Assembly (NCBI GenBank): GCA_900469475.1
Contig: UBXG01000005.1
Coordinates: forward strand, 62,001-126,000
Reading direction: 5' to 3'
Length of the DNA: 64,000 nucleotides
Origin: Hyphomicrobiales bacterium
GTDB taxonomy: Bacteria; Pseudomonadota; Alphaproteobacteria; Rhizobiales; Rhizobiaceae
Shown in pieces: positions 45,713-53,896 of the stretch; position 1 is the stretch's first letter, and each line of letters starts with the position of its first letter. Below the pieces are notes generated by a model. That model did not search any database. It was not told the origin of the DNA and saw nothing but the letters and a program-made list of their open reading frames with translations. The position numbers and the translations under genes were made by a program.

Positions 45713-45838
45713 TGTTTTTTATGCGGCAGAAAGAAGGCGGGATATTTCCGCCCGTTAACAAGATAACCTAGCCAGCCCCTTGCCTGCATTCGACGCAGCA
45801 ACCAGCCAGCCCGGTGAAGCAATTCGAAAGGAATGGTT

Positions 45839-48094
45839 ATGGTTGTCCGGCGATCCCGCTCGGTTCTATTGGCATGCACCGCGTTTCTCGCTCTCGGGCT
45901 GGCGACGACATCTCTTGCGCAGACCGCAGCCCCGAATGACGAGGCGACGGGCGAGGCGGCAAAGGGTGACCGCGTCACCAATCTGAAACCGATCGTCGTG
46001 AAGGGCAAAGGCAAGGCGAACAAGGACGTGCTTGCGGATTCCCCGACCGCCAGCGAGACGACGGCCAAGGAAATCGACGAGAACCAGATCACGCGTATCG
46101 AGGATCTCGGCCGCAGCACCGAGGTCGGCGTCGGCTTCAACCGCGCTACCGGCGGTGTTAATATTCGCGGCCTCGGTGATGACCGTGTGCTAACGACGGT
46201 CGACGGCATTCAAATTCCTTTCCTTCTCGATGCTTCACGCGGCAGCGCCAATGGCGCCAATAATGGTGGTAATGGCGGCGTCAACAGCTTTGATTTCAAC
46301 GCGCTTTCGAGCGTCGATATCGTGCGCGGCGCCGATTCCAGTCGTGCCGGTTCGGGCGCTCTCGGCGGCGCCTTCGTGCTGCGTACGCTGGAGCCGGAAG
46401 ATCTGATTGCGCCCGGTTCTACCTGGGGCGGTGTTTTCAAGTTCGGCTATAATGGCGACGACCGCAGCATCGGCGGTTCAGCCGCGGTTGCCAAGCGCAT
46501 CGACAACACCGCCGTTCTCTTCCAGGGCGGCTACACGCATGGTCATGAGCTTGAGAACAACGGCAATGTCGGCGGCTATTCGACCAAGCGTACCGAGGCT
46601 AACCCGGCTGACTACAATCAGAGAAGCGGCCTGTTCAAGATCCGTCAATATACCGACATCGGCACCTTCGGCATCACGGCCGAGCACTATAACAAGGACA
46701 AAACCACCGATCTCATGACCCTTCAGAGCCCGACTGGAAACTTCCGGCCCGGCAGCTATAGCGGGACAGACAATGTTGAGCGCAATCGCGTGTCGCTCGA
46801 TTACAAATATGAAGCCGAAAGTGCCGATTCGCTGCTCGATACCGCCAACGCCGTTTTCTACTGGCAGAATCTTCTGCGTGAAGGCGGTGTGGAAGGCTAT
46901 CGCTATACATCCGTCATCGGCGACTATTGGCGCCGTAATGAAATGGAAGATCGCAGCATCGGCTTCGCCGGCAATGTATCGAAGTCTTTCGATACCGGCA
47001 GCCTGCATCACCAAGTCACTTTTGGTCTCGATGTTGCCTTCGACAAGGTTCACCAGTACTCGGCCGGCGAGGATAGCTGTGCACTTCCTCGCTGGCGTGC
47101 TTCCTGCGCCTTCCTGCACACCAACCAGTCCGATATGCCCGATGTCGATGGCAAGCGCGTCGGCGTCTTCATCGACGACAAGATCGAATTGGGCTCCAGC
47201 AATTTCTATTTGACGCCGGGTCTTCGCTTCGACTGGTACGATTACTCGCCGAAGAACACGGCTGCCTATCGCGACAGCGCCAACTATAATGGCTTGCCCT
47301 CCGGGCAATCCGACAGCCGCTTCTCGCCGAAGCTGCGTGCCTCCTATCAGCCTCAGGACAATGTCGAGCTCTATGCGCAATGGGCGATGGCCTTCCGTGC
47401 GCCCAATGTTAGCGAACTCTACGTCAACTACGGCGTGCCGGGCGGTTATGTCACCTACGGCAATCCCGACCTGAAGCCGGAAACCAGCAACGGCGTCGAA
47501 ATCGGCACCAACCTCGGCGATGACGATTTCGGCGGCCATATCGGTGCGTTCTATAACAAGTACAAGAACTTCATCGACACGCTGAATTATCGCGATCCCA
47601 CAGGCACCTATCCGCTCGGGATTACCGAATACTTCAATCGCGCCAACGTCCGCATGTTCGGTGTCGAGGTCAACGCGCACAGGAAGTTCGACAACGGCAT
47701 CCACATCAAGGGCTCGGTCGCCTATGTGAACGGCAAGGACTCCGATACCGGACAATGGATCAATTCCGTCGCCCCGGCCAAGGCTGCCTTCACCGTCGGC
47801 TATGCGACCGAAGTCTGGGGAACGGATCTGACCTTCATCACCGCGGCTCGCGAGGCGAAGAAGACAGGCGACACGCTGCAGACCCCCGCCTACGGTATCT
47901 TCGACCTCACAGCATGGTGGGAACCGGAGCAGGTGAAGGGCCTCAGCATTCGCGGCGGCGTCTACAACATCTTCAACAAGACCTATTACGACGCGCTCAA
48001 CGCGCCGTCCTATAGCGGCACGCTAACCCAGCCAGCATCCTACTATTCCGAGCCTGGCCGAACCTTCAAGCTGACGCTGACGCAACGGTTCTAA
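45839..48094 (+). CDS. TonB-dependent haem/haemoglobin receptor
   Basis: Outer-membrane beta-barrel receptor, 751 residues. Signal peptide MVVRRSRSVLLACTAFLALGLATTSLAQ, plug domain (residues about 55-160, with VGFNRATGGVNIRGLGDDRVLTTVDGI), then the barrel to the terminal phenylalanine (LTQRF). FRAP and NPDL motifs typical of haem receptors are at AFRAPNVSELY and YGNPDLKPET. The histidine normally found between FRAP and NPNL is absent; that segment is tyrosine-rich. ATG 45839 has AAAGGA upstream. The two iron boxes upstream fit RirA control. Likely a homologue of HmuR/ShmR; no haem uptake genes follow. Confidence 0.88.
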   Translation: MVVRRSRSVLLACTAFLALGLATTSLAQTAAPNDEATGEAAKGDRVTNLKPIVVKGKGKANKDVLADSPTASETTAKEIDENQITRIEDLGRSTEVGVGFNRATGGVNIRGLGDDRVLTTVDGIQIPFLLDASRGSANGANNGGNGGVNSFDFNALSSVDIVRGADSSRAGSGALGGAFVLRTLEPEDLIAPGSTWGGVFKFGYNGDDRSIGGSAAVAKRIDNTAVLFQGGYTHGHELENNGNVGGYSTKRTEANPADYNQRSGLFKIRQYTDIGTFGITAEHYNKDKTTDLMTLQSPTGNFRPGSYSGTDNVERNRVSLDYKYEAESADSLLDTANAVFYWQNLLREGGVEGYRYTSVIGDYWRRNEMEDRSIGFAGNVSKSFDTGSLHHQVTFGLDVAFDKVHQYSAGEDSCALPRWRASCAFLHTNQSDMPDVDGKRVGVFIDDKIELGSSNFYLTPGLRFDWYDYSPKNTAAYRDSANYNGLPSGQSDSRFSPKLRASYQPQDNVELYAQWAMAFRAPNVSELYVNYGVPGGYVTYGNPDLKPETSNGVEIGTNLGDDDFGGHIGAFYNKYKNFIDTLNYRDPTGTYPLGITEYFNRANVRMFGVEVNAHRKFDNGIHIKGSVAYVNGKDSDTGQWINSVAPAKAAFTVGYATEVWGTDLTFITAAREAKKTGDTLQTPAYGIFDLTAWWEPEQVKGLSIRGGVYNIFNKTYYDALNAPSYSGTLTQPASYYSEPGRTFKLTLTQRF

Positions 48095-48120
48095 GCGGTT
48101 ACATCAATGCAGCAACCTTG

Positions 48121-48148
48121 GGCGATGCTTCGGCATCGCCTCTTTTTT
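48121..48148 (+). terminator. Rho-independent terminator of the haem receptor gene
   Basis: GGCGATGC (48121-48128), a TTCG tetraloop and GCATCGCC (48133-48140) followed by TCTTTTTT: a textbook hairpin with U run 27 bases past the stop. Confidence 0.93.
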
Positions 48149-48181
48149 GCCCTCATGCGTAGCGTCCCGTGGTTTGTGCAA

Positions 48182-48210
48182 TTGAAAATCGCAACGCTTG
48201 ATGCTATTCG
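48182..48210 (+). promoter_or_regulatory. Predicted promoter of the ABC-F leader transcript
   Basis: TTGAAA (48182-48187), 17-base spacer, TATTCG (48205-48210), 47 bases upstream of the leader ORF. It is beyond the previous gene's terminator, so the leader and ABC-F gene would start a new transcript here. Confidence 0.5.
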
Positions 48211-48256
48211 AGCGGCACAGTCTTAAACCCGTCGAGAGAAAAGAGAGGAGGACCGT

Positions 48257-48328
48257 ATGAGCAAGATAGTCTGGCATATTCGCCAGTTCGGTCCGACTCG
48301 TGCCCTGCAGATGCGTTTGCAGGGCTGA
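48257..48328 (+). CDS. Short leader ORF upstream of the ABC-F gene
   Basis: ATG at 48257 with GAGGAGG at ideal spacing, 23 sense codons and TGA at 48326-48328. The peptide starts MSKIVWHIRQ and ends RALQMRLQG. The last codons are inside a hairpin, GCCCTGCA and TGCAGGGC, with an eight-base loop. An ABC-F start codon follows 185 bases later. This is the layout of ribosome-mediated attenuation seen in leaders of antibiotic resistance genes, where an inhibitor stalls the ribosome on the leader. It is unusual in alphaproteobacteria. The peptide itself is not one I recognise. Confidence 0.6.
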   Translation: MSKIVWHIRQFGPTRALQMRLQG

Positions 48329-48513
48329 TCAGAGGCTGTTTCTCACTCATTCCTCCTGGTCTGCCCCTTGGGCGACGCGAGTTCACGCATCCGCGTGGCC
48401 GCGTCATGACATGTTTTCGAGCATTGGCCGATACGGCCATCGGCATCGATTTAGCGCGGCAAAAGGAGCCGCCGGCGATGCCTTGAGATGCTCGATCGAG
48501 ACCGGAAAAGACC
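48329..48513 (+). other. Structured leader RNA between the short ORF and the ABC-F gene
   Basis: Besides the hairpin at the leader's end there is a larger one at 48374-48405: GACGCG and CACGC pair with GCGTG and CGCGTC, enclosing ATCC, followed by TTTT some seven bases later (48413-48416). TCCTCC at about 48352 could pair with the leader's AGGAGG ribosome site. A tiny ATG frame (48488-48517) overlaps the ABC-F start. The pieces suit alternative folding, but no experiment-like test was possible. Confidence 0.5.
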
Positions 48514-50037
48514 ATGACTCTGATCAATCTCCGCAATCTGGGCGTCACCATGAGTGCGCCGCTGTTTTCCAATCTCAACTTCACCGTCGATGCCGGTGAC
48601 CGCGTCGGCATCGTCGCCGCGAATGGACGCGGGAAGACCACGCTGCTCAACTGCATCACGGGCAGGCAGGAGCCGACCATGGGCGAGATCACCCGCGCGC
48701 GAGGCTTGCGCGTCGGCTACGTCGAACAGAATGTGCCGGCGGATCTTATGGATGTCTCCTTTTATGACGCCGTTCTGCGCGCTTTGCCCAAAGAGCAGGT
48801 AGAGAGCGAGAGCTGGCGTGTCGATGTCACCCTTGATTCGCTCGATGTGCCAGAGGCGATGCGGGAGAGGACGTTGGCTCAGCTCAGCGGTGGCTGGCAG
48901 CGGCTTGCCATGCTTGCTCGCGTCTGGGTGACGGAGCCCGACCTGCTGCTGCTCGACGAGCCGACCAACCATCTCGATCTCGCCAAGATCGCGTTGCTGG
49001 AGGATTGGCTGAATGCCCTGCCGCGCGACGTGCCCGTCATCATCGCCAGCCACGACCGTGCCTTCCTCGACGCTGTCTGCAATCGAACCCTGTTCCTGCG
49101 CCAGGACCAGTCGCAAACCTATGCGCTGCCATATAGCCGGGCGCGTGCGGCGCTGGACGAGGTCGATGCTTCGGATGAACGCCGCTATCAGAAAGAGATG
49201 AAGACGGCACAGCAGCTGCGCAAGCAGGCGGCCAAGCTCTACAATCTCGGCGTCAACTCCGGCAGCGATCTCCTGACGGTGAAGACGAAGCAACTGAAGG
49301 CACGGGCCGAGAAGCTGGAGGACAGCGCGAGACCGGGCTACCGCGAGCGCTCTTCCGGCTCGATCAAGCTCGCCAATCGCGGCATTCACGCCAAGGTGCT
49401 TCTGACGCTGGAGGATGCATCGGTGACGACGCCAGACGGTACGCTGCTGTTCAAGACCGGCCAGCAGTGGATTTGCCAGGGCGATCGCATCGTGCTGCTC
49501 GGCCAGAACGGCGCGGGCAAGACGCGGTTCGTCGAGATGATCCGCAGGGCGATTGCCGATCAGGCCGTCGGCGGTACGATCAAGCCGACGCCGTCGCTTG
49601 TGCTCGGCTACAGCGATCAGGCGCTCTCCAATCTCGGCCAGAAGGACACGCCGCTCGGCATGATCACGCGCCTATTCGAGCTCGGCGAACAGCGTGCCCG
49701 CACGTTGTTGGTCGGTGTCGGCATCGGTATCGATATGCAGGGAAAAGAGATCGGCCGTCTGTCCGGCGGGCAGAAGGCGCGGCTTGCCATGCTGGCGCTG
49801 CGGCTGACCAATCCCAACTTCTACCTGCTCGATGAGCCGACAAACCATCTGGATATCGATGGGCAGGAGGCGCTGGAGGGCGAGCTGACGGCAAATGAGG
49901 CAAGCTGCCTTCTCGTCTCGCACGACCGCAGCTTCGTGCGATCTATCGGCAATCGCTTCTGGCTGATCGACCGGAAGCGACTGGTCGAGGTGGATGGTCC
50001 CGAGGAGTTCTTCGAAGCCGCCAGAGCGCAAGAGTAG
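48514..50037 (+). CDS. ABC-F family ATPase (ribosome-associated type)
   Basis: 507 residues, two ABC domains in one chain and no membrane part, thus ABC-F: ribosome-binding ATPases including antibiotic-resistance proteins and translation factors. Domain one: GIVAANGRGKTTLLN (A), TLAQLSGGWQRLAML (signature), LLLLDEPTNHLDLAK (B). The linker (about 210-290) has the Arg/Lys-rich helices typical of the P-site tRNA interaction motif. Domain two: LLGQNGAGKTRFVEM, RLSGGQKARLAMLAL, YLLDEPTNHLDIDG. Both Walker B glutamates are present. The upstream leader ORF suggests induction by ribosome stress. Antibiotic protection versus housekeeping cannot be told. Confidence 0.92.
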   Translation: MTLINLRNLGVTMSAPLFSNLNFTVDAGDRVGIVAANGRGKTTLLNCITGRQEPTMGEITRARGLRVGYVEQNVPADLMDVSFYDAVLRALPKEQVESESWRVDVTLDSLDVPEAMRERTLAQLSGGWQRLAMLARVWVTEPDLLLLDEPTNHLDLAKIALLEDWLNALPRDVPVIIASHDRAFLDAVCNRTLFLRQDQSQTYALPYSRARAALDEVDASDERRYQKEMKTAQQLRKQAAKLYNLGVNSGSDLLTVKTKQLKARAEKLEDSARPGYRERSSGSIKLANRGIHAKVLLTLEDASVTTPDGTLLFKTGQQWICQGDRIVLLGQNGAGKTRFVEMIRRAIADQAVGGTIKPTPSLVLGYSDQALSNLGQKDTPLGMITRLFELGEQRARTLLVGVGIGIDMQGKEIGRLSGGQKARLAMLALRLTNPNFYLLDEPTNHLDIDGQEALEGELTANEASCLLVSHDRSFVRSIGNRFWLIDRKRLVEVDGPEEFFEAARAQE

Positions 50038-50052
50038 ACGAGGGCAGAATCT

Positions 50053-50952
50053 TCAGGCGGCCAACTGACCCGAAAACAGATTGGCCGCCATGAAATCCAC
50101 GAAGATCCGTATTTTCGGAGAGAGATAGCGGCTTGTGGGCCACAATATGCGGAAGATGCCTGTCTTCGCGATATTGTCTTCGAGCAGTGGCAGAAGCCGG
50201 CCGTCGGCGATTTGTGCGCTGACGGCAAAGGGCGGCAGGCATGTGATGCCAAATCCGTTTTCGGCAAGATGGATGAGCGGTTCGATGGTGCTGGCGATCG
50301 TCGTCGTCGGCAAGGTGAGCCGCAACTCCTCCCCATTGCGCACCAGAGGCCACGGCTCCAGCTTGCCCGTGCTGGGATAGCGATGATGCAGGCATTTGTG
50401 CTGCAGCAGGTCTTCAGGTGCAATCGGGGTTCCTTCCGCTTTCAGATAGTTGGGTGCGGCGACGATTTGAAAGCGGAATGTGCCGAGCTTGCGGCTCATC
50501 AGCCTCGTGTCCTTGACGTCGCCGGTCCGGATGACGGCATCGAATCCCTCCTCGATCACATCGACCAGCCGGTCGGTAAAATCCAGATCCAGCGTGATAT
50601 CGGGATAGGTGCGCATGAAAGCCGATATCGCCGGCATCAGCAGCATTCCGGCCAGGGGGAGGCTGACGCGAAGATGACCGCGAGGAGCCGCGTGCGATTT
50701 CGAAAGCTCTGTCTGAGCCATATCCAGCTCAGAGATAATGCGCCGGCAGGTGTTGAGAAAGAAGCTGCCTTCTTCGGTCAGGGTCATGCTCCGGGTCGAG
50801 CGGTGAAAGAGGCGGACCCCCATCTCCTGTTCGAGGCGGGCGATCGCCTTGCCCACGGCGGAACTGGAGAGGCCAAGCCGTCGCGCGCCTGCGACGAAGC
50901 TGCCACCTTCCGCCGTCTGCACAAAGATGCCGAGCGTTCCAAGCCTATCCAT
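50053..50952 (-). CDS. LysR-family transcriptional regulator
   Basis: 299 residues: N-terminal HTH (LGTLGIFVQTAEGGSFVAGARRLGLSSSAVGKAIARLEQEMGVRLFHRSTRSMTLTEEG) and a substrate-binding regulatory domain (HLRVSLPLAGMLLMPAISAFMRTYPDITLDLDF). ATG at 50952 follows GGAG. It is divergent from the antibiotic biosynthesis monooxygenase-domain gene, which is the natural candidate target, with a 123-bp shared region. Inducer unknown. Confidence 0.92.
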   Translation of the reverse strand: MDRLGTLGIFVQTAEGGSFVAGARRLGLSSSAVGKAIARLEQEMGVRLFHRSTRSMTLTEEGSFFLNTCRRIISELDMAQTELSKSHAAPRGHLRVSLPLAGMLLMPAISAFMRTYPDITLDLDFTDRLVDVIEEGFDAVIRTGDVKDTRLMSRKLGTFRFQIVAAPNYLKAEGTPIAPEDLLQHKCLHHRYPSTGKLEPWPLVRNGEELRLTLPTTTIASTIEPLIHLAENGFGITCLPPFAVSAQIADGRLLPLLEDNIAKTGIFRILWPTSRYLSPKIRIFVDFMAANLFSGQLAA

Positions 50953-51075
50953 CGCCACTCCGATTGCGGAATATAATTCCGATCTTATGAGAATACCGGA
51001 TCATTTATCCGCTATCTCAACCTCGATATCCAGTGTCGGCGCGGCAATGACGCCGCTTTTCCAGAAGGAACCGCA

Positions 51076-51441
51076 ATGAATACGAATTCCGCACATTTCA
51101 TCGCCCAGCCGCAGCCGACCATCTTCATCGTCAATGTCATCCACGTTCATCCCGGCAAGCAGGAAGAAGCCTTCCGGGTGATCCAGGATGTCGTTCACTA
51201 TGTCGCCGAGCGGAAAGAAGGATTCCTCTGGAGCAACCTTGCCAAGAGCACGGACGGTCTGACGGTTGTGAATATCGAAGCCATCAAAGGCGCCGGCAAC
51301 GTCGACGAATTCTTCTCCGATCCGGTCTTTGTCGAGAAATTCCGCAGGCTCGACGAGGTTTCGACAAGCGAATTCCATACCTACACCGTTGGCGATCTGG
51401 TTTTGCCGAAGCTCCGCCATTCCGAAAGTGGTCGCGTCTAA
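51076..51441 (+). CDS. Antibiotic biosynthesis monooxygenase (ABM) domain protein
   Basis: 121 residues with one ABM ferredoxin-like domain: IFIVNVIHVHPGKQEEAFRVIQDVVHYVAERKEGFLWSNLAKSTDGLTVVNIEAI is the family core. Such small cofactor-free monooxygenases or quinone-handling proteins are usually dimers. AGAAGGAACCGCA precedes the ATG. It lies divergent from the LysR gene, and the nearest downstream gene is the trp leader on its own promoter. Substrate unknown. Confidence 0.85.
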   Translation: MNTNSAHFIAQPQPTIFIVNVIHVHPGKQEEAFRVIQDVVHYVAERKEGFLWSNLAKSTDGLTVVNIEAIKGAGNVDEFFSDPVFVEKFRRLDEVSTSEFHTYTVGDLVLPKLRHSESGRV

Positions 51442-51543: not shown

Positions 51544-51591
51544 ATGAACATGTCCTTGAACAACATCGCAGTTTGGTGGTGGGCTCGCTGA
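51544..51591 (+). CDS. trpL: trp leader peptide TrpL (WWW)
   Basis: Fifteen codons, MNMSLNNIAVWWWAR, with three tryptophan codons in a row just before the stop, as in the S. meliloti leader [14 protein letters not shown]. Tryptophan-starved ribosomes stall on the run and free the antiterminator fold. In S. meliloti the peptide also acts in trans on antibiotic-resistance mRNA. No ribosome site precedes the ATG, in line with a leaderless transcript. Confidence 0.92.
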   Translation: MNMSLNNIAVWWWAR

Positions 51592-51658
51592 GGCGGCCTC
51601 GACCAATCGTGTTCAAAGACGACGAGTGAGCCGCCCGAGATTTCGAGGCGGCTTTTTT
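51544..51658 (+). ncRNA. trp attenuator RNA (rnTrpL-like)
   Basis: From the predicted start at the trpL ATG to the terminator: GCCGCC (51630-51635) pairs with GGCGGC (51647-51652), inner CGA with TCG, followed by TTTTTT (51653-51658). The competing antiterminator uses GGCGGC at 51592-51597 against the same GCCGCC. Terminated transcripts would be about 115 nt, the size of the S. meliloti sRNA rnTrpL which is known to act in trans. Trans action here is inferred from that homology. Confidence 0.85.
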
Positions 51659-51706: not shown

Positions 51707-53896
51707 ATGGTAACGATCCTTCGGGATGACGGTGCGGAAATCTACGAGACGAAGGGCGGCATCACCGTCACCCGGCAGCGCCGGCCGACGCCCTATGCGG
51801 ATGCCGTGTCGTCCTATATCGACAAGCTCGACGAGCGCCGCGGTGCGGTCTTCTCATCGAACTACGAATATCCCGGCCGCTATACACGCTGGGACACCGC
51901 CATCGTCGACCCGCCGCTCGGTCTTTCCTGCAACGGGCGCGATGTCTGGATCGAAGCCTACAACGAACGCGGCGAGGTCATCCTCGGCTTCATCGCGGAG
52001 AAGCTGAAGACAGTTTCCGAAGTGGTGCTTGGCGCCTCGATGCCCCGCCGGCTCGATCTGACCGTAAAGACGCCGGATCGCGTCTTTACCGAGGAAGAGC
52101 GCTCGAAAATGCCGACGGTCTTCACCGTGCTGCGCGCCGTGACCGATCTCTTCTACTCGCAGGCGGATGCCAGCATCGGCTTCTACGGTGCCTTCGGCTA
52201 TGATCTCGCCTTCCAGTTCGACGCGATCGATCTGAAGCTCAAGCGCCCGGACGACCAGCGCGACATGGTGCTTTACCTGCCGGACGAAATCCTGGTGGTG
52301 GACAACTATTCCGCCAAGGCCTGGATCGATCGCTACGATTTCGCCAAAGGCGACGTTTCGACGGAAGGCAAGTCGGGCGAGATCGCGCCCGAGCCGTTCC
52401 GGCACACCGATGCCATTCCGCCGAAGAGCGATCATCGCGCCGGCGAATATGCCGAGCTGGTGGTCAAGGCGAAGGAGAGCTTCCGCAAGGGCGATCTTTT
52501 CGAAGTCGTGCCCGGCCAGAAGTTCATGGAGCGCTGCGAGAGCAAGCCATCGGATATTTCCAAGCGCCTGAAGGCGATCAATCCGTCTCCCTATTCTTTC
52601 TTCATCAATCTCGGCAATCAGGAATATCTCGTCGGCGCTTCGCCTGAGATGTTCGTGCGCGTTTCCGGCCGCCGCATCGAGACTTGCCCGATTTCGGGCA
52701 CGATCAAGCGCGGCGACGATCCGATCGCCGATAGCGAGCAGATCCTGAAGCTCTTGAACTCCAAGAAGGACGAATCCGAGCTGACCATGTGCTCCGACGT
52801 CGACCGCAACGACAAGAGCCGTGTCTGCGAGCCAGGCTCGGTCAAGGTCATCGGCCGCCGGCAGATCGAGATGTATTCGCGCCTCATCCACACGGTTGAT
52901 CATATCGAGGGCCGCCTGCGCGACGACATGGACGCCTTTGACGGTTTCCTCAGCCACGCCTGGGCCGTCACCGTCACCGGCGCGCCGAAGCTTTGGGCGA
53001 TGCGCTTCATCGAGAGCCATGAAAAGAGCCCGCGCGCATGGTATGGTGGCGCGATTGGCATGGTCGGTTTCAACGGCGACATGAACACCGGCCTGACGCT
53101 GCGCACCGTGCGCATCAAGGACGGCATTGCCGAAGTGCGGGCAGGCGCAACGCTGCTCAACGACTCGATCCCCGAGGAAGAAGAAGCCGAAACCGAATTG
53201 AAGGCCTCCGCCATGCTTTCCGCCATTCGTGACGCCAAGGCCGGCAATTCCGGCAAACAGCAACGGGACGTTGCTTCCGTCGGCAAGGGTGTGAAGATCC
53301 TGCTCGTCGACCATGAAGACAGCTTCGTCCACACGCTTGCCAATTACTTCCGCCAGACGGGCGCGACGGTTTCGACCGTGCGTACGCCGGTGCCGGAAGA
53401 CGTCTTCGACCGCCTCGATCCGGATCTCGTCGTGCTGTCGCCTGGTCCCGGCAATCCGAAGGATTTCGATTGCAAGGCGACGATCAAGAAGGCGAGGGCG
53501 CGTAACCTGCCGATCTTCGGCGTCTGCTTGGGCTTGCAGGCGCTAGCCGAAGCCTATGGCGGCGAGCTGCGCCATCTGGCGATCCCGATGCATGGGAAGC
53601 CCTCGCGCATCCGCGTGCTGGAGCCCGGTCTGGTCTTCTCCGGTCTTGGCCGCGAAGTGACCGTTGGTCGTTATCACTCGATCTTTGCCGATCCGTCGAG
53701 CCTGCCGCGCGACTTTATGATCACGGCCGAGAGCGAAGACGGCACGATCATGGGCATCGAGCATGTGAAGGAGCCGATCGCAGCTGTCCAGTTCCACCCG
53801 GAATCGATCATGACGCTTGGCGGCGATGCCGGCATGCGGATGATCGAGAATGTCGTGGCGCATCTGGCGCGGCGGGCGAAGACGAAGGCCGCCTGA
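51707..53896 (+). CDS. trpE(G): Fused anthranilate synthase TrpE(G)
   Basis: First committed step of tryptophan synthesis, chorismate plus glutamine to anthranilate. 729 residues, with both subunits in one chain as is typical for Rhizobiaceae. The TrpE part covers about 1-520 (chorismate-binding end with [40 protein letters not shown] and the [11 protein letters not shown] segment) and the TrpG glutamine amidotransferase about 525-725, with [13 protein letters not shown], the catalytic C607 in [12 protein letters not shown], and HFPE-type QFHPES near the end. GGAGTGAGG precedes the ATG. Feedback inhibition by tryptophan is likely, and attenuation is provided by the leader just upstream. Confidence 0.96.

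Follow-up and report, generated by a model that had tools for sequence, protein, structure and literature searches.

What governs the synthesis of an alphaproteobacterial ABC-F ATPase is the question raised by a 64,000-nucleotide stretch of DNA (the window), in which a short leader ORF sits between the gene for a TonB-dependent receptor (45833–48094) and that for the ABC-F protein. A preliminary description, made from the letters of the DNA, had pointed to this leader and to folded RNA ahead of the ABC-F gene, with reference to ABC-F genes of Firmicutes that are induced by ribosome stalling on such leaders. A known design of this kind is ermC with its leader ermCL, a Gram-positive translational attenuator in which four RNA segments pair either as 1:2 and 3:4 or as 2:3. 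We use the same numbering for the elements of the present locus, which are as follows.

48120–48141, forward strand: terminator-like hairpin that follows the TonB-dependent receptor gene upstream and sets it apart from the leader; kept in Rhizobium lusitanum.
48242–48251, forward strand: Shine-Dalgarno stretch of the leader ORF, AGAGAGGAGG, read from the sequence; identical in R. lusitanum.
48257–48328, forward strand: leader ORF of 23 codons, ATG to TGA, MSKIVWHIRQFGPTRALQMRLQG; present in relatives.
48290–48295, forward strand: codons for Gly12 and Pro13, the proposed stall point; kept in relatives and marked by pN against pS.
48302–48309, forward strand: segment 1, GCCCTGCA, the 5′ arm of the leader hairpin; from covariation and folding.
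48318–48334, forward strand: segment 2, TGCAGGGC plus TGATCAGAG, comprising the 3′ arm of the leader hairpin, the stop codon and the next bases; partner either segment 1 or segment 3.
48356–48366, forward strand: segment 3, CTGGTCTGCCC; about 31 nt past the leader stop in relatives.
48374–48405, forward strand: second hairpin of the preliminary description; local, between segments 3 and 4, and not conserved.
48498–48513, forward strand: segment 4 region, GAGACCGGAAAAGACC, immediately 5′ of the ABC-F start; relatives have GACCAGAGA near −20, of which this is a diverged version.
48514–50037, forward strand: ABC-F ATPase gene, 507 amino acids; from domains and from profile and fold matches.

Most of the anatomy that had been described is there: the 23-codon frame, a strong ribosome site 5 nt ahead of it, an 8-bp perfect stem (48302–48325) overlapping its end, a terminator-like site upstream, after the receptor gene, and the ABC-F start downstream. 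The promoter ascribed to the leader was not recovered, there being no σ70-like site in 47950–48700, a result obtained with an E. coli-type consensus that is weak evidence either way. Among the matches listed, the closest named relative at the locus is R. lusitanum (L116; ABC-F identity 86%), in which the stretch 5′ of the leader ribosome site is kept only in part. The second hairpin exists, with a predicted energy of −18.5 kcal/mol, but as conserved machinery it failed, being altered already in R. lusitanum within a stretch variable in length and sequence; we rejected it as a conserved element. We likewise rejected membership of the leader in a known RNA family: Rfam at gathering score gave no match at the leader over the window, and between 48100 and 48600, with E up to 1, returned only a sub-threshold SorY match 5′ of the leader (48100–48148, E 0.081).

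Beyond the ABC-F gene, a LysR-type regulator (50053–50958, reverse strand) is divergent from a small protein gene (51076–51441, forward strand), the product of which has a match to antibiotic biosynthesis monooxygenase (ABM) just below threshold. An Rfam match to the RcsR1 sRNA (51563–51658, 108.5 bits) lies upstream of a gene at 51707, which we take, by reading only, to be trpE(G). The sequence ahead of this gene holds an ORF ending in IAVWWWAR, presumably the counterpart of the S. meliloti trp leader peTrpL/rnTrpL.

The leader accompanies one ABC-F gene

We searched 297 genomes of the family with the ABC-F protein, accepting as orthologs those matches whose score was clearly apart from that of paralogs. 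Orthologs were found in 57 genomes, the window's own included, and all 57 have the leader. In 50 it was recognized by its peptide pattern, a canonical end GP-x-x-AL-x-x-x-LQG* or one near to it, and in seven by reading; six of these seven have a TAA stop inside the hairpin loop and the seventh (L059) stops directly after Ala-Leu. The conservation check on the short ORF that the preliminary description had put forward as a possible refutation was thereby run, and since the ORF is kept in relatives the refutation failed. A search of 289 genomes of the class gave ten ABC-F matches at E 1e-100 or better, the genome's own aside. The leader is present in seven of eight orthologs at 51–64% identity; in L096, an ortholog at 64% identity in an AT-rich genome, none was visible on reading the locus, which is a natural case of leader loss. 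Nor was the leader found for two class matches at 40% identity (L104 and L105), which are probably other ABC-Fs. Four orthologs (G145, G178, G217 and L073) are split into two pieces in different frames and are broken genes or assembly errors; the leader is still present at each.

The linkage was also seen when approached from the DNA. In the 6.35-Mb genome from which the window comes there is a single match to the hairpin-plus-stop pattern; with at most one mismatch allowed, the pattern is present in 53 of 397 genomes of the order, as against three matches for a reversed control pattern. Among 30 order loci examined, 28 precede the same ABC-F gene, in seven families besides its own. Two leader matches without ABC-F (L080 and L092) both lie within other sequence and were rejected, one or both being likely chance. 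A scan of named genomes with the leader pattern matched at least 118 stretches, and among the matches listed an ABC-F gene of about 50–86% identity is downstream in 79 of 80 loci; the contig of the eightieth (L124) ends after 86 nt downstream and is not judgeable, giving 79 of 79 judgeable loci. These loci span Rhizobium, Mesorhizobium, Bradyrhizobium, Aminobacter, Ensifer, Devosia, Bosea, Rhodobacteraceae and Roseomonas, among others. Across all sets, a GGAGG, AGGAG or GAGG stretch is present within 75 nt 5′ of the hairpin at 147 of 157 loci. The locus thus has a conserved short ORF with a ribosome site ahead of the main gene, as an ermC-type attenuator does.

Selection on Gly-Pro at the protein level and on the stem at the RNA level

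How the loci were chosen determines which residues can be read as conserved. The 50 family loci were picked by the peptide pattern at the leader end, by which their Ala-Leu and Leu-Gln-Gly residues are given, but neither the codons for these nor Gly-Pro; the 28 order loci were picked by hairpin DNA; and the 79 named loci were picked by hairpin DNA together with GGNCC, by which Gly-Pro is given there. Gly-Pro was scored in the first two sets, selected irrespective of it, where it stands two codons ahead of the stem at 77 of 78 loci. In the 50 family loci the Gly-Pro codons have a pN of 0.021 against a pS of 0.478, whereas pS falls to 0 for Ala-Leu and 0.039 for Leu-Gln-Gly in the stem and is 0.534 in the loop codons. 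Across the 78 loci, 50 of them picked by peptide alone, GCC CTG and CAG GGC TGA are invariant, and in the stretch His-Arg-x-Arg-Gly-Pro-Val 5′ of the stem synonymous positions vary freely. From this codon pattern and the contrast in pN and pS we conclude that selection preserves Gly-Pro for its amino acids and the stem for its RNA. Between the window and R. lusitanum the leader ORF has three differences in 72 nt, none synonymous.

The terminal Met-Arg-Leu of the leader had been loosely likened to the RLR stall motif of ErmD-type leaders. Its loop codons vary freely among relatives (MR, AC, AS, SR, QQ, FS, HL and others) and are dispensable, being absent where the ORF stops early; we rejected a stall at the peptide end. 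Such early stops, ahead of the loop or within it, with the stem kept and LQG lost, occur at 12 loci (L051–L056, L059, L097, L123, L151, L158 and L166). Terminal MRL is thus not likely to be the stall site, and Gly-Pro, two codons before the stem, is the part of the peptide under selection. That the +X+ pattern is missing holds for the window, which has Arg-Gln-Phe ahead of Gly-Pro, but not for its relatives, where R-x-R often stands in that place (108 of 157 loci).

Arg and His abound in many leaders (FRHHRQRGP), as would be expected if too little charged tRNA for Arg, His or Pro stalled the ribosome in the manner of classical amino-acid attenuation. We consider this very improbable, because other lineages have different residues in place of His and of most Arg, the constant codons comprise a single Pro and a single Gly, and the ABC-F gene is not biosynthetic.

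Selection on the stem as RNA was also apparent from its pairing. In 63 distinct sequences 98.4% of hairpin cells are paired, compared with 94.0% after shuffling, and changes on both sides are seen at 6 of 10 pairs (24 cells), compared with 2.0 after shuffling; none of 500 shuffles reached either value. RNAalifold predicts the same stem unprompted. The hairpin ends of 14 variant loci were chosen by eye. Rewritten stems were found in L099 (GCCCCACGA/TCGTGGGGC), in L100 and L101 (GCCCCGCA/TGCGGGGC) and in L059 (GCCCTGTAAA/TTTACAGGGC), the stem in L099–L101 being rewritten within a different peptide. A 1:2 hairpin that overlaps the leader and shows compensatory change is again what an ermC-type attenuator has. 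Predicted folds of several relatives (L009, L020 and L033) pair the ribosome site of the leader (GGAGGGCTGCG) with its Arg-Gly-Pro codons (CGCGGCCC), and the leader (48242–48300 and its counterparts in relatives) may, on these predictions, fold on itself before translation too.

The same data bear on whether the product of the ORF is a small trans-acting protein, the hairpin being incidental. For this there is a precedent in S. meliloti, peTrpL, reported in PMC7298713 and in passages of PMC10117765. Here, however, compensatory changes preserve the stem where the end of the ORF is shortened or rewritten, and the ORF is never apart from the ABC-F gene at the 79 judgeable loci among the matches listed, and we give a trans-acting product hardly any credence.

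Segments 3 and 4 and their predicted alternative pairings

Past the leader stop, the spacer holds two further conserved elements. Segment 3, CTGGTCTGCCC, is present in 118 of the 131 distinct spacers that are at least 100 nt long, on the criterion that no fewer than 9 of its 11 bases match. Segment 4, (CA)GACCAGAGA, lies near −20 of the ABC-F start in relatives; it and segment 2 (consensus GGGCTGACCAGAGA) are near-repeats, each complementary to segment 3. The 3:4 energy was −15.7 for a locus's own segments, −14.5 when these were permuted between loci (0 of 2,000 permutations as low; the relatedness of loci is still contained in this result) and −9.7 when shuffled, own pairings beating shuffled ones in 101 of 115 cases. 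In L083, GATCTG pairs with CAGATC where other loci pair GGTCTG with CAGACC.

We next consider folding of 110 loci, a set from which 13 spacers with fewer than 9 of 11 segment 3 bases were left out and in which duplicates were merged. With segment 1 masked, and before segment 4 exists, at least five 2:3 pairs were predicted in 110 of 110 loci, compared with 58 unmasked, the mean number of 2:3 pairs being 9.4 and 4.5, respectively. In the full transcript at least five 3:4 pairs formed in 85 loci unmasked and 43 masked. Shuffled spacers gave 2:3 in 47 of 220 and 3:4 in 5 of 220 with positions fixed, and in 80 and 13 of 220, respectively, with the motif re-chosen. In these 110 loci with their shuffled controls, folding thus predicts 2:3 and 3:4 to be mutually exclusive, with 3:4 at the main start, which is the arrangement of an ermC-type attenuator.

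Two cruder tests were equivocal. Averaged over loci, the start region is no more open in the stalled state (unpairedness 0.39 versus 0.38); the energy needed to open it dropped by over 1 kcal/mol in 37 of 76 loci and went up in 13; and in whole-region duplex energies z was below −2 for 3:4 in 29 of 75 loci but for 2:3 in only 8 of 75. The window itself has a weak 3:4 pairing (−11.6 kcal/mol, a value reached by 24% of the other stretches in that spacer), which at equilibrium is not displaced by masking (6.2 pairs in both states), as is the case in L033, L116 and L134. Because 3:4 persists in the masked window at equilibrium, the switch model needs 2:3 to form first, during transcription.

In characterized ABC-F leaders the usual design is transcription attenuation, according to passages of PMC9226507, PMC10201436 and PMC10314930, and a stalled ribosome could here too avert premature termination, intrinsic or Rho-dependent, before the ABC-F gene, as in vmlR, msrD and cplR. 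The window has one weak terminator-like site (48394–48408), and Rho-dependent attenuation linked to a uORF is known in S. meliloti from part of PMC12218461. No consistent intrinsic terminator was found between leader and ABC-F, however, terminator-like sites being present in only 21 of 139 distinct spacers and in differing places, and segment 4 is at the ABC-F start, where action would be on translation. Transcription attenuation in place of a translational switch therefore seems to us rather improbable; Rho could act in addition to such a switch.

Model for control of the ABC-F gene

The alignments support a conserved ORF, selection on Gly-Pro, a compensated hairpin, fixed spacing and conserved segments 3 and 4, and folding calculations predict the mutually exclusive pairings. 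Together these suggest, with a confidence somewhat better than even, that an ermC-type translational attenuator controls the ABC-F gene and that a stall at Gly-Pro opens its start. By default, ribosomes would finish the leader, segments 1 and 2 would pair as the hairpin at the end of the ORF, and the free segment 3 would pair with segment 4 at the ABC-F ribosome-binding region, such that little ABC-F is made. On induction, a ribosome would stall once the conserved Gly-Pro has reached the peptidyl-transferase centre. Such a ribosome, its P site occupied by Pro, would cover segment 1, freeing segment 2 to pair with segment 3 once this is transcribed and leaving the ABC-F start open.

The position of the proposed stall would fit this scheme. 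Were Pro13 (48293–48295) in the P site, a downstream cover of about 16 nt would reach 48309, the last base of segment 1; coverage by a ribosome stalled at R-x-R alone would end short of the stem. This geometry would agree with Pro being universal and R-x-R frequent. The stall would probably be caused by a ribosome-targeting drug, and the induced ABC-F would then protect the ribosome. As a first guess, by analogy, the inducer might be an exit-tunnel drug, because R-x-R and X-Pro-X match +X+ and XPX, which are described as erythromycin arrest motifs in an excerpt of PMC13410324. The stalling-leader reading of the preliminary description is thus supported in part, namely in a conserved, translated-looking ORF and folded RNA with the anatomy of a ribosome-stalling attenuator ahead of an ABC-F gene, but not in its use of terminal MRL and the second hairpin.

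The ABC-F protein and a drug-free alternative

The protein has two ABC_tran domains (model pLDDT 90.1) joined by a helical linker, with no transmembrane part, and so has the architecture of an ABC-F. The linker helices are long (residues 207–249 and 252–272), and the tip near NSGSDLL is highly conserved. The best profile match in the PDB is VmlR2 (258.8 bits), followed by human ABCF1, YheS, YbiT and Uup. Fold matches were led by VgaL (Z 32.9), VmlR2 (32.6) and VgaA-LC (31.8), with human ABCF1 (31.7) and EttA (31.2) less than 2 Z units off the lead, so the comparison does not split resistance from housekeeping ABC-Fs. None of the NCBIfam cut-offs for resistance ABC-Fs was passed (NF000355, 305.7 bits against a cut-off of 380); the window's protein is the highest NF000355 scorer of 43 orthologs. 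Because the fold does not separate the two kinds and no cut-off was passed, we refer to an unnamed ABC-F group and have not filed it as a resistance protein.

This bears on a drug-free alternative, in which the RNA switch is unchanged but (R-x-R-)Gly-Pro is itself slow or arresting and the arrest is resolved by the ABC-F, such that the leader gauges ABC-F activity and the gene is autoregulated. MsrD represses its own leader-dependent induction, according to part of PMC10314930. Moreover, within the peptide only Gly-Pro is nearly universal, and in its fold the protein resembles EttA and human ABCF1 as closely as it does resistance ABC-Fs. Against these points, an intrinsic stall would tend toward constant expression, and nascent chains of 12–13 residues are short for known intrinsic arrest peptides. 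We regard such a gauge as unlikely, yet worth keeping in mind. Were it true, ABC-F synthesis would rise only in response to insufficient activity of the protein itself or to ribosome pausing on sequences of this kind, and this uncharacterized alphaproteobacterial ABC-F would be a new translation factor into which a sensor for its substrate is built.

Returning to the translational attenuator, the leader would hint at the function of the unnamed ABC-F group and predicts a stall position to the codon. If soil Alphaproteobacteria meet natural ribosome inhibitors, the leader may reveal which.

Comparison with known systems

Control of ABC-F genes by stalling uORFs is a Gram-positive theme in the literature that we found, and the present case is alphaproteobacterial. 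In the open-licence literature, which leaves subscription journals and preprints outside its scope and of which one listing comprised best matches only, we found no description of this leader ahead of an ABC-F gene. By search terms, an ABC-F with this leader was absent from the portions available of papers on S. meliloti small proteins, on tetracycline and on uORF4u (PMC10117765, PMC12218461 and PMC10219788). In conclusion, the leader is real and widely conserved and likely works as a leader-peptide attenuator, of which the lineage and the peptide are new and the general kind is known: a long selected peptide and what appears to be an ermC-like switch accompany one ABC-F through Rhizobium, Mesorhizobium, Bradyrhizobium, Devosia, Bosea, Roseomonas and Rhodobacteraceae.

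Among Gram-positive ABC-F genes, vmlR, vmlR2, cplR and lsaA resemble the present one in having a conserved uORF and alternative RNA structures ahead of the gene, as set out in passages of PMC9226507 and PMC10201436. Their uORFs have three or four codons (MIN, MK[L/Q], MR[I/M] or MAGN; PMC10201436, in part) and are coupled to an intrinsic terminator, vmlR combining attenuation of transcription and translation (PMC9226507, in part), whereas here there are about 23 codons, an internal Gly-Pro under selection and no consistent terminator. The leader msrDL likewise stands before an ABC-F gene, msrD, and the feedback of its product on leader stalling may be a further likeness to the present leader. 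It differs, in the account that parts of PMC10314930 give, in being the six-residue MYLIFM with a stall at the stop codon, in acting by transcription attenuation and in belonging to a streptococcal mobile element.

The anatomy is closest to ermC/ermCL, an attenuator also named in an excerpt of PMC12121999. The two share a leader peptide, segments 1 to 4, exclusive pairings (predicted here) and a main-gene start in segment 4; they differ in that the gene here encodes an ABC-F, not a methyltransferase, that hairpin 1:2 is integrated into the leader's final codons and its stop, that the peptide is unrelated and that the host belongs to the Alphaproteobacteria. Among Gram-negative bacteria, the drug-sensing uORF toiL of the E. 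coli topAI operon, as described in part of PMC12121999, similarly exposes the ribosome site of its main gene on stalling. Its main gene belongs to a toxin–antitoxin operon, and its pairing runs along the uORF such that a stall at any position works, whereas in the present leader one fixed position is under selection.
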